From Fervidobacterium changbaicum (lineage in GTDB: Bacteria; Thermotogota; Thermotogae; Thermotogales; Fervidobacteriaceae), in NCBI RefSeq assembly GCF_004117075.1, contig NZ_CP026721.1:1302001-1366000 (forward strand): DNA of 64,000 nt, given 5' to 3'. Both the position numbers and the translations under genes were made by a program. Positions 20,683 through 29,298 of this stretch are shown piece by piece. The stretch's first letter is position 1. Every line of letters begins with the position of its first letter. The notes beneath the pieces are model-generated. The model saw only the letters and a list, made by a program, of their open reading frames with translations. It made no database searches and was not told the DNA's origin.

Positions 20683-20708
20683 CGGGGGCACCACGTGCCC
20701 CCTTTTTC
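20683..20708 (+). terminator. Terminator after secF
   Basis: GGGGGCACCACGTGCCCCC followed by TTTTT: a GC-rich stem with a tiny loop and a T-run. Confidence 0.9.
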
Positions 20709-20762: not shown

Positions 20763-22712
20763 TTGGCACTTCTGTTTTCCTCTATATTAGCCGGTTTAGT
20801 TTTGATTATCTACCTAACGCTCACTGTGTTAGACAAGAGCCCTGGAAACGAAAAGACTGAAAAGATTTCCCGTATCATCCAGAAAGGTGCGCGTTCCTTT
20901 CTCATGCAAGAGTACACAGTCTTCTTCCCAATAGTTTTTGCACTTGCTATTCTCTTTGGCTTTTCTTCAGGATGGACAAAAGCAACAGCATTTGTAATAG
21001 GTTCTGTTTTTTCCGTTCTTGCAGGTTTCTTCGGAATGACTATTGCGACAAAATCAAACGCAAGAACTGCCTGGGGAGCGACAAGAAGCATAGGCGAAGC
21101 GCTCGATATTGCCTTCTCTGGTGGAGCAGTTATGGGACTTGTCGTCTCTGTGCTTGGACTTTTGGGATTGGGAGTTGTGTACTTGCTCTTCGGACTTGAG
21201 GAAATCAGCTTTTACTCGCTTGGTGCTTCGTTTGTTGCACTCTTTGCACGCGTTGGTGGTGGTATCTACACAAAGGCTGCTGATGTTGGTGCGGATATTG
21301 TAGGAAAAGTGGAAGCAAATTTGCCAGAAGATGATCCTAGAAATCCAGCCGTTATAGCTGATAACGTTGGTGACAACGTTGGTGACGTTGCTGGCATGGG
21401 AGCAGACCTCTACGAATCTTACGTTGGGTCGATTTTCTCGGCAATTGCCCTTGGATATGCCTTGTTCGGTGAAAAAGGAATATTAGACACACTTTACATA
21501 ATCTCATTCGGACTTCTCGCGTCCATTATTGCAATCGTATTTGTGAAAATTCTTTCCAAGCTTAATACAGAACCTGCAAAGGCTTTAAGATTAGGTACTA
21601 TTAATGCAAGCGTTGTCTTTTTGGTAATTTCTTTTGCTTATTCCATTATGGAGAAGAATTTGAATCTATTTTGGACGGTCCTTGTTGGTAACATCGTAGG
21701 CGTGCTCATAGGTCTCATTACCGAGTGGTACACATCTGGTAAAAAAGTTGAAAAGCTGGCTCACTCCGCAGCAATGGGACCAGCGAACGTCATAATTAGT
21801 GGAACTGCACTTGGAATGGAATCAACGGCGGTAATAACTATACTTATCGCACTGGGCACTTACATTTCCTACCGCTTATCTGGACTCTATGGTATTGCCA
21901 TGGCTGGCGTAGGTATGCTTGCAACACTTGCGATGAACCTTTCAGTTGATGCGTATGGTCCTATTGCAGATAACGCTGGTGGGATTGCACAGATGGCTGG
22001 TTTGGACAAAAGTGTAAGGGAAATTACTGACAAACTCGACGCGCTTGGAAATACTACGGCAGCTATGGGAAAAGGATTTGCAATAGGTTCAGCCGCTCTT
22101 ACTGCAATTGCGCTATTTGCAAATTTCGGTTCTGCTGCCCATGTACAAAGTATCCAGCTCCAAGATCCAAAAATGTTCATCGGTGCGCTAGTTGGTGCTA
22201 TGCTCACGTTCTTTTTCTCCGCACTTACAATGAACGCCGTTGGTGATGCTGCAAACGATATGGTTGAAGAGATAAGAAGGCAAATTCGAGAAGTACCCGG
22301 TATTTTATCTGGAACAACAGAACCAGACTACGAAAGCTGTATAAAGATAGCCACAAAAGGTGCGCTTAAAAGAATGGTTACACCTGCCGTATTAGCAATA
22401 GCTGCTCCCATAATACTCATGATAGGCTTAGGTGTCCAGGCGGTTGTTGGTCTATTGATCGGTGCTACAGTTACCGGTGTTGCACTTGCTATATTCATGG
22501 CGAATTCCGGCGGGGCATGGGACAACGCGAAAAAGTACGTCGAAGAAGGTCACCTTGGCGGTAAAGGTTCATTTGCTCACAAAGCTACTGTCGTTGGTGA
22601 CACTGTAGGTGATCCATACAAAGACACAGCAGGACCTTCTTTGAATATCCTTGTCAAACTTATGGCGATAACATCAATAGTATTCTACTCAATAGTGGGG
22701 AGGTGGCTATAA
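20763..22712 (+). CDS. hppA: K+-dependent membrane-bound pyrophosphatase (ion pump)
   Basis: A 649-residue pump, about 15 helices, that couples PPi hydrolysis to H+ or Na+ transport. The substrate and Mg sites are in [40 protein letters not shown] and, at the C-terminus, [39 protein letters not shown] has Ala where K+-independent enzymes have Lys, so it should be K+-dependent. The semiconserved Glu of [12 protein letters not shown] occurs in both H+ and Na+ pumps; the ion is not decided here. It is among the shorter members. TTG start after GGAGGTGAG. Its stop abuts the start of a phosphofructokinase-like gene. Confidence 0.95.
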
Positions 22713-23714
22713 ATGAGAAGGATAGGAGTTCTTTCTGTCGGGAATGACTGTCCTGGTTTAAACCCTGCAATTAGGTCAATCGTAGTGAATGCTATAGAAC
22801 AAGAAATAGAAGTGATGGGCATAAGGGACGGATTCGAAGGATTGCTTAACGATAAAGTTGATATTTTGATTAGGAACAACGTTTCCGGTATACTTCACCA
22901 AGGCGGTACCATACTTGGAACATCGCTCTTCATACCAGAGAAAGATGAAGAACTAATAGCGATTAAGAACAAAACAACACAGTACGGCATAACTGGTTAC
23001 ATCATTCTTAGAGGAAGGAATGCCGTTAGAAGTGCACTGAATTTGCAAAAATACGGAATTCCATCGATAATTGTTCCAGCAACAATAGATAACGACCTTT
23101 CATTTACAGACTTTTCCATCGGCTTTATAACAGCTCTTGAACACGTAACCCAAGCGCTTGATATAATCCATTCAACTGCAGAGTCACACCACAGAGTGAT
23201 GATTGTAAAAACGATGGGAGCACCTGGTGGTTGGCTTGCCACATTTGGAGGACTCGCCGGTGGTGCCGATTTCGTTATAACAAGCTCGGATGTACTTAAT
23301 CCAAAGGAACTCTTAGCTACAATACAGCACCGGTATGAAAGTGGAAAGAGATTCTCGATAGTCGTTGTCGAAGATGGTGTTAAACTGCCAGACGAAATCA
23401 TCGATGAATGTAAATGCTCGCACGAAACAGACCCTGCGGAGGTTGTTGGACTATACATCGGGAAAAAACTGAACCTTGAGTGGAGGTACACAAACCTTGG
23501 CTACATCCAAAGAGGTGGAACACCTGCTGCTATAGACAGAATCATAGCGACACAATTAAGTGCGCGTGCTGTGGAACTTGTAAAAATAGGAAAATTCTAC
23601 CATGCGGTAGGAGTTAAAGGATTCGTTGTTACAGAGGTCCCTTACAGCGACACATTGCTTAATGTTAGACCTGTTGATTACTACATAAAACAATTAGCCA
23701 AACTTTTCTACTGA
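22713..23714 (+). CDS. Divergent phosphofructokinase-family protein lacking the donor site
   Basis: A 333-residue protein of the PfkA fold. The sugar-phosphate half is kept: TIDND (124-128) with base Asp126, Arg161 and Met168 (HHRVMIVKTMG), Glu220, Arg258 and IQRGG (Arg267). The phosphoryl-donor site is not: the GGDGS loop is replaced by RGRNA (Arg102, Asn103, Ala104 where E. coli has Asp103, Gly104, Ser105), the Arg72 equivalent is Leu72 and the residue before TIDND is Ala123. This matches neither the ATP type (Gly/Gly) nor the PPi type (Asp/Lys). His249 is Tyr264. The ATG abuts the hppA stop behind GGGGAGGTGG. It may be a pseudoenzyme, a regulator or an enzyme with another donor. Confidence 0.8.
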   Translation: MRRIGVLSVGNDCPGLNPAIRSIVVNAIEQEIEVMGIRDGFEGLLNDKVDILIRNNVSGILHQGGTILGTSLFIPEKDEELIAIKNKTTQYGITGYIILRGRNAVRSALNLQKYGIPSIIVPATIDNDLSFTDFSIGFITALEHVTQALDIIHSTAESHHRVMIVKTMGAPGGWLATFGGLAGGADFVITSSDVLNPKELLATIQHRYESGKRFSIVVVEDGVKLPDEIIDECKCSHETDPAEVVGLYIGKKLNLEWRYTNLGYIQRGGTPAAIDRIIATQLSARAVELVKIGKFYHAVGVKGFVVTEVPYSDTLLNVRPVDYYIKQLAKLFY

Positions 23715-23745: not shown

Positions 23746-23776
23746 AGCGGTGGCGTAAGCCACCGTTTGCTTTTTG
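23746..23776 (+). terminator. Terminator after the PFK-like gene
   Basis: AGCGGTGGCGTAAGCCACCG with GGTGGC/GCCACC stem and GTAA loop, followed by TTTGCTTTTT. Confidence 0.85.
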
Positions 23777-28188: not shown

Positions 28189-29298
28189 TCAGTCTTCTTC
28201 TTTTCGCCTCTTTCCAGTTATGTGTTCCACCACCAATTTTACCACAGTTGTATTTGCACACTCGCGTTCTAATTCTTCGATGTTTGGTTGTGAAAATCTC
28301 TCGTAAAGTTGTGGCGCGTATTTATGGATAAGTTCCAAGAGCGCCATTTTCTTTTCTCCACCCTCGATTATTCTTGCTTGCCCAAAAGCGATGACACTAT
28401 CGTAAGCTGTTGATAATTTATCTGGCAATAGCTTAGATTTCGTGACGACAGAAAAACTTGCGTTCTTTTGAAAAGAAATATTGTCGAGCTTTTTACCAAC
28501 ACTTGCGCAGTGGAAATATATGGCACCGTCTTTGTATACATAGTTGACAGGTACGGCGTACGGGTACTTCCCATCCCAAGTTGCTAAAAATCCATATTCT
28601 CCGATTTTCAAAAGCTCTATCGCCTCTTTGGTAGATAGTTCTCTATCCTTTCTTCTCATCTTAGCAAACACAGCAATACCTAAGATTTGCTTAACGCAAT
28701 TGATTAAAACCCTTGGTGGGAGCTGACTGACGATTGCGATATTTCTATTTGTATAAAGCTTGAACCCATCCATGTTCAGCCCACAACCCAGTTCGTAGGC
28801 CTGCTCGTATTTTTCAAAAGCCTCGCTTTCGTTTTTGAGTTCGACTTCGACCATGTATTTGACCTCAACGTTGTACGGCACATCCAATTCAATAAACTCA
28901 TCAAGCACGACTTCTGCGGGGGTTTCGGAAATAAAGTATCTCACCTTTGCAGTGACAGGACTTTCGGATAGTCTTTTGAAAAATTCATCCCAAAATTCAT
29001 CCGTTTGATTTTCAACGACGTCGGTTAATTCAAATTCTTTCTCCGCTCTTTTAAATCCCTCAGACAATTCCGATTTGAAAGCGATGATCCAACTCTCTTT
29101 TCCTGATTCATCGACGGTGTAGCGCACTCTACATTCCTGATGTGGCATATCTTCCAAGTTACGAAGTAGTGCTAAAAAAGAGCAGTCCAGCAGATACCAC
29201 TGGACTACTCCAAGCTTTTGTTTTGAAATTGACCTTAGTTTTTGAGCTTTCTCCTCATTGATGAGGTACTTCTTTTCACGTTCAATTCCGTCGTTCAT
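28189..29298 (-). CDS. Fusion of a CYTH domain and a NimA/PNPOx-like flavin split-barrel domain
   Basis: 369 residues in one frame. Residues 1-205 are CYTH-like: ExExK is Glu6, Glu8, Lys10 (EREKK), followed by alternating charged strands (ECRVRYTVDE, WIIAFKSE, FKRAEKEFEL, EVVLDEFIEL) expected of the triphosphate tunnel. Residues about 214-369 are a flavin-binding split barrel: MRRKDRELSTKEAIELLKIG, YGFLATWDGKYPYAVPVNYV, IYFHCASVGKKLDNI. That part alone would be a NimA-type pyridoxamine-phosphate-oxidase-like protein. No ribosome binding site precedes the internal Met214, so it appears translated as one chain. AGGAG precedes the ATG. The function of the pair is unknown. Confidence 0.75.
   Translation of the reverse strand: MNDGIEREKKYLINEEKAQKLRSISKQKLGVVQWYLLDCSFLALLRNLEDMPHQECRVRYTVDESGKESWIIAFKSELSEGFKRAEKEFELTDVVENQTDEFWDEFFKRLSESPVTAKVRYFISETPAEVVLDEFIELDVPYNVEVKYMVEVELKNESEAFEKYEQAYELGCGLNMDGFKLYTNRNIAIVSQLPPRVLINCVKQILGIAVFAKMRRKDRELSTKEAIELLKIGEYGFLATWDGKYPYAVPVNYVYKDGAIYFHCASVGKKLDNISFQKNASFSVVTKSKLLPDKLSTAYDSVIAFGQARIIEGGEKKMALLELIHKYAPQLYERFSQPNIEELERECANTTVVKLVVEHITGKRRKEED

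Follow-up and report, generated by a model that had tools for sequence, protein, structure and literature searches.

What does a member of the phosphofructokinase (PFK) family do beside a membrane pyrophosphatase gene? The question is raised by a gene at positions 22713-23714 of a 64,000-nucleotide stretch of the Fervidobacterium changbaicum genome (the window; positions 1,302,001 to 1,366,000 of contig NZ_CP026721.1), which directly follows hppA and encodes a PFK paralog in which the residues that serve the phosphoryl donor are replaced. Accounts of bacterial PFKs set ATP against PPi as the donor, and the sequence of this paralog carries the signatures of neither.

Donor-site residues are replaced and sugar-phosphate residues are kept

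The open reading frame at 22713-23714 (+) is intact, with 333 codons, and PF00365 spans the protein end to end (profile positions 1-277 of 277, E 4.9e-84). An AlphaFold model based on a 28-sequence alignment showed the PFK fold throughout (pLDDT 91, pTM 0.88), with 6PFK as the closest solved structure (TM 0.89, 36% identity), and a phmmer search against PDB sequences gave the C-terminal halves of human PFKs as the top matches. Among the NCBIfam models, the protein passed the subfamily PRK03202 (296.8 versus a cut-off of 253 bits) and did not reach the equivalog TIGR02482 (229.8 versus 371.35 bits), the cut-off of TIGR02483 or NF041103, the model for PPi-dependent PFK (96.2 versus 550 bits). 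Given the PRK03202 score, NCBIfam would label the gene ATP-dependent 6-phosphofructokinase, which is likely a misannotation.

Individual residues were compared using an alignment of 156 sequences, among them E. coli PfkA, 100 canonical relatives and the members of the family. The members group as f1 (Fervidobacterium) and f2 (Pseudothermotoga), with 29 sequences together, and f10 (apparently Petrotogaceae-like), with 20. In characterized PFKs, GGDG, R72 and G108 serve ATP and GGDD and PK(T) serve PPi (PMC12203962, PMC10339645), and position 124, A123 in the window protein, is G in most ATP-PFKs and K in PPi-PFKs (PMC12203962). The codons discussed here and below are as follows.

22743..22745, + strand: N11 codon (E. 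coli G11, donor phosphate loop); N in 29/29 f1/f2, G in f10
22926..22928, + strand: L72 codon (E. coli R72); L in 29/29 f1/f2, K in 20/20 f10, R in 84/100 other PFKs
23013..23024, + strand: G101-R102-N103-A104, replacing the GGDGS donor/Mg2+ loop (E. coli G102-D103-G104-S105), from the alignment
23079..23096, + strand: A123-T-I-D126-N-D128, retained catalytic base motif, from the alignment
23193..23195, + strand: R161 codon (E. coli R162, sugar 6-phosphate); R in 49/49 family rows
23484..23513, + strand: stretch from R258 to R267, matching R243-R252 of E. coli (sugar phosphate); H249 is replaced by Y264, from the alignment

The four donor-side substitutions reported in the initial annotation, R72 to L72, D103 to R102, G104 to N103 and S105 to A104 (E. 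coli PfkA to window protein), were all recovered in this alignment, as was the absence of both the ATP-type (GGDG, G108) and the PPi-type (GGDD, K124/PKTIDXD) signatures, with GRNA and PATIDND present instead. Further losses were detected on the donor side of the window protein: G11 to N11, G108 to S107, G124 to A123 and R171 to A170. The initial annotation had also raised the possibility that the RGRN variant is conserved beside hppA in other Thermotogales. R102 and the linkage to hppA are conserved, and R100 and N103 are not; R100, the first R of RGRN, is private to the window genome, its relatives having GGR.. at this position. The conserved feature is the basic residue at E. coli D103, which is R in 29/29 f1/f2 sequences and H in 20/20 f10 sequences, whereas the other 100 aligned PFKs carry D, E or N there. 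The E. coli G108 position is A, S or I across the family (S107 in the window protein), and the R171 position is K, A, R or G in f1/f2 and D in f10. Two versions of the donor pocket are thus fixed, N11, L72, R102 and A123 in 29/29 f1/f2 sequences and G11, K72, [ST]GHTG and A124 in 20/20 f10 sequences. Nine positions define the whole clade versus other PFKs, and three of these (72, 103 and 124) are among the 14 donor positions (hypergeometric p 0.004). With the Mg2+ ligand D103, R72 and R171 all gone, phosphoryl transfer from ATP or PPi is unlikely for the window protein. The possibility that another segment supplies the GGDGS loop was rejected; the protein has no GGD motif elsewhere, and the model shows a normal strand (95-100) and helix (102-113) around the replaced loop.

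The sugar-phosphate and base residues, by comparison, are kept as initially claimed: D127 corresponds to D126, R162 to R161, R243 to R258 and R252 to R267 in the 156-sequence alignment. E. coli T125, D127, D129, R162 and R252 are invariant in 49/49 family rows, and R243 is kept in 48/49, the exception being a Gln in L132. The changes found on the sugar side of the window protein are H249 to Y264, a Tyr shared by every family member, and E222 to D221, at a position that is variable in f1/f2.

The gene is under strong purifying selection. The dN/dS of the PFK gene relative to congeners is about 0.01-0.02, a constraint no weaker than that on hppA, though these ratios are only indicative since dS is saturated. 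A decaying pseudogene was rejected given these ratios and the open frames in the orthologs; the donor site is replaced and re-fixed rather than decayed.

A score of at least 312 bits was taken to define orthologs, and 49 of the 103 Thermotogota genomes have one. A maximum-likelihood tree placed all members in a single clade (99/100) with a long stem (0.89 changes per site); this clade is sister to the PFK_mixed/PPi-type group (92/87) and lies apart from the Thermotogota ATP-PFKs. The close kinship with the eukaryotic regulatory half suggested by phmmer was unsupported, as the tree places the family elsewhere, with both human halves on long branches. No clear ortholog was detected outside Thermotogota by a GTDB pattern scan or by a profile search of 40 genomes from other phyla to which the scan's loci belong, an absence that is not proven because the f10 members themselves escaped the pattern scan. 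The best non-Thermotogota matches, at 330 bits to the family profile, were canonical types such as GGEGT and GGEDT. We also noted two tandem PFK genes in Ignavibacteria (L042, L049, L055, L071), one of the GGEGS/PKTIDND type and one of the GGDDT type.

These features set the family apart from each of the PFKs it most resembles. With bacterial ATP-dependent PfkA (E. coli and G. stearothermophilus; 6PFK, 1PFK), it shares the fold, the length, the sugar-phosphate residues, the catalytic base Asp and part of the effector site (R21, R54, K212), but it lacks the GGDGS loop, R72, G108 and R171, has Tyr for H249 and is linked to a PPase. The TIGR02483 'PFK_mixed'/PPi-type short PFKs with PKTIDND are its sister in the tree, with about 36-41% identity, and have H153 and D186 in common with it, whereas the hppA-linked family has Ala for K124, GGR.. 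or GHTG for GGD[GD]T, and a long stem. The C-terminal half of eukaryotic PFK-1, the top phmmer match in the PDB, likewise has the PFK fold and a lost donor site, and this regulatory half binds a fructose phosphate. The eukaryotic half, however, has Ser at D127, is fused to a catalytic half and serves F2,6BP, whereas the hppA-linked PFK keeps D126, is free-standing and PPase-linked, and is not its sister in the tree.

Linkage of the PFK gene to one HppA subclade

The observation that the gene abuts hppA holds to the nucleotide, with the hppA stop codon TAA at 22710-22712 and the ATG of the PFK gene at 22713. The locus is organized as follows.

20684..20702, + strand: predicted intrinsic terminator between secF and hppA (consensus match only)
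20763..22712, + strand: hppA, K+-dependent-type membrane pyrophosphatase, 649 aa (PF03030, E 2.5e-253; intact catalytic motifs)
22697..22706, + strand: ribosome-binding-like GGGGAGGTGG for the PFK gene, inside the 3´ end of hppA, 6 nt upstream (read directly)
22713..23714, + strand: hppA-linked PFK paralog (candidate pseudo-PFK), 333 aa (PF00365)
23746..23767, + strand: predicted intrinsic terminator downstream of the PFK gene (consensus match only)

Given the predicted terminators on either side, hppA and the PFK gene look like a two-gene unit. The window HppA is complete, with intact catalytic motifs and a GNTTAA motif, which we take to mark the K+-dependent type of membrane pyrophosphatase.

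The pairing extends well beyond the window. By set comparison, the same 49 of 103 Thermotogota genomes carry the hppA-linked PFK and one HppA subclade, delimited by a score of at least 737 bits to the window HppA, with every other HppA at 542 bits or less. The two are co-inherited, and across the 103 genomes this subclade is never found without the PFK paralog. For 48 of the 49 genomes, the genes are adjacent on the same strand with hppA first, separated by -4 to +7 nt in most f1/f2 genomes and by 12-437 nt in f10. The linked HppAs form one clade (100/99, in a tree from full-length rows) that includes the HppA of G053, the sole genome with a separated pair, in which both genes (L117, L192) are kept 0.9 Mb apart and the PFK gene comes after one that resembles dihydroorotate dehydrogenase. 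The flanking genes vary, from secDF and an MFS transporter in the window to secDF and a SAM hydroxide adenosyltransferase at L135, amino-acid genes in f2 and others in f10; as the neighbours otherwise differ between families, the hppA/PFK pair is the conserved unit. Because the joint distribution tracks the families, the 49/49 correspondence reflects a small number of independent evolutionary events. Only ten clade-specific changes, scattered over the protein, were found in the linked HppAs, and they form no obvious docking patch. Overall, the link to hppA is stronger than the initial annotation proposed.

Two observations were made alongside this comparison. Some Thermotogota genomes carry a further HppA, which forms its own clade (L182, L183, L185, L188, L189, L193), and the L182 and L188 proteins show the GNTSKAITKG motif of K+-independent types. 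Elsewhere in the window, at 28189-29298 (-), a predicted protein has a C-terminal pyridoxamine 5´-phosphate oxidase-like domain at residues 223-364, and no Pfam match at E 1e-5 in the roughly 220 residues before it.

PPi and the other PFKs in the cell

The window genome has two other PFK genes, both elsewhere in the genome, one of the ATP type with GGEGS (L001) and one of the PPi type with GGNDS/PKTIDND (L003). In this genome, a search for soluble PPases of family I gave no match, and the second hppA is broken, with an internal TAA, and present as fragments (G000:C1:1629066-1630453, - strand; L194). The PFK-linked HppA is therefore the only intact PPase found, family I having been searched, in a genome that also encodes a PPi-PFK. 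For the congeners or close relatives G068, G069, G070 and G075, the PFK-linked hppA is likewise the only hppA.

The PPi-PFK gene is located 1.9-3.5 kb from hppA in all 10 of the f2 genomes with the pair. In one f2 region (L172:965-14932), the hppA/pseudo-PFK pair shares a stretch of 14 kb with the genes for ATP-PFK and PPi-PFK, interspersed with glycine-cleavage and lysine-biosynthesis genes. PPi and polyphosphate inhibit the PfkA of T. maritima (PMC10339645), which already connects glycolysis to the PPi level in this phylum, and a PPi-PFK is co-encoded with an H+-PPase in methanotrophs and chemosynthetic symbionts (PMC4287430). Together these precedents make the association of a PFK-fold protein with a PPi pump a natural one. 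The methanotroph and symbiont systems share with the window the coupling of a PFK-fold gene to a membrane pyrophosphatase; their PFK, however, is a genuine reversible PPi enzyme, whereas in the window genome a different gene encodes the PPi-PFK and the linked PFK has no donor site, lacking the residues of a PPi enzyme despite its linkage to a PPi pump. A multi-omics report on F. islandicum gives 'PFK' as lower on feather, in a passage that leaves the PFK gene unspecified (PMC13157175).

Candidate functions of the hppA-linked PFK

We tentatively favor the view that this PFK paralog has given up the donor half of its active site, kept the sugar-phosphate half and, in a two-gene module with one HppA subclade, acts as a fructose-phosphate sensor-regulator. 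Given the strict pairing with that subclade, the simplest mechanism is one in which the protein regulates HppA, or the PPi pool, in response to sugar phosphate. F6P and/or FBP would be bound in the retained sugar site, with the 6-phosphate clamped by R161 and R258 of the neighbouring subunit plus R267 and the sugar 1-position held by T124/D126, and R102 (or His) may stand in for the missing Mg2+/donor charge. The liganded protein would then modulate HppA, such that PPi either drives ion pumping or stays available to the PPi-PFK and biosynthesis. F6P/FBP binding, catalytic inactivity and direct action on HppA are what we infer from the sequence comparisons; a more specific version, in which the free-standing pseudo-PFK is a dedicated cytoplasmic regulatory subunit of HppA that reads the fructose-phosphate level to gate the PPi-driven pump, is possible though rather doubtful. 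Several points count against a sensor: the catalytic base D126 and D128 are kept, which a pure sensor does not need; operon linkage can reflect a shared need instead of direct regulation; the co-occurrence runs along family lines; the pair is separated in G053; and HppA has no obvious docking patch.

The retained base could instead point to a working phosphotransferase whose donor is neither Mg-ATP nor Mg-PPi but, for instance, acetyl phosphate, metal-free PPi or the end of a polyphosphate chain, with the Arg/His at 103 binding the leaving phosphate without metal, or to FBP dephosphorylation. Such activity would fit the invariance of the D127 base, D129 and T125 in 49/49 members, the conservation of the replaced site, where a basic R/H at 103 and K72 in f10 are as expected of a new anion site, and the co-encoding with a PPi-consuming pump, given the PPi-PFK/PPase pairs known in methanotrophs and symbionts (PMC4287430). 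We consider it doubtful, since R72 and R171, both of which assist phosphoryl transfer, are either lost or not constant, D128 is the sole metal ligand left, and one new shared substrate does not predict two clades with different donor pockets. An unlikely alternative is a regulatory subunit that relays a PPi or sugar-phosphate signal in mixed tetramers with the genuine ATP-PFK or PPi-PFK, R161 and R258 reaching across the interface. The active-site residues that cross this interface (R162, R243) are kept, no solved structures match the sequence better than the human PFKs do with their C-terminal halves, and eukaryotic and yeast hetero-oligomeric PFKs set a precedent (PMC12203962). The gene sits with hppA and not pfkA, however; genuine PFKs occur in Thermotogota with and without the hppA-linked PFK, although the HppA subclade is never without it; and the tree, with its long branches, does not put the family beside the eukaryotic halves. 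Least probable is an ordinary PFK with an odd-looking donor site that still uses ATP or PPi. The full-length PF00365 match, the PRK03202 score (296.8 versus 253 bits) and the G11 and K72 of the f10 members are in keeping with ordinary function, but D103, G104, G108, R72, G11 and R171 are changed together, the ATP (GGDG, G108) and PPi (GGDD, K124) signatures are absent, and the TIGR02482 and TIGR02483 cut-offs were failed.

The fructose-phosphate sensor-regulator that we favor, like the use of an unusual donor, was anticipated by the initial annotation, which proposed a pseudoenzyme sensing fructose phosphates or an unknown donor and hinted at PPi balance; these suggestions fit every comparative test made here. 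No description of an hppA-linked PFK was found among the open-licence papers searched, and a review of PFKs makes no mention of pseudo or inactive PFKs or of Thermotogota (PMC12203962). We regard the protein as a variant member of the PFK superfamily and as an hppA partner of a new kind.

For the organisms themselves, naming the gene according to PRK03202 would give metabolic models of Fervidobacterium, Pseudothermotoga and related organisms an active PFK too many, the third. We know of no dedicated protein regulators of membrane pyrophosphatases. With a donor-less PFK tied one-to-one to an HppA subclade, fructose-phosphate control of a PPi pump becomes testable with two thermophile proteins and, if true, would couple PPi-based membrane energisation to glycolytic flux by direct allostery.
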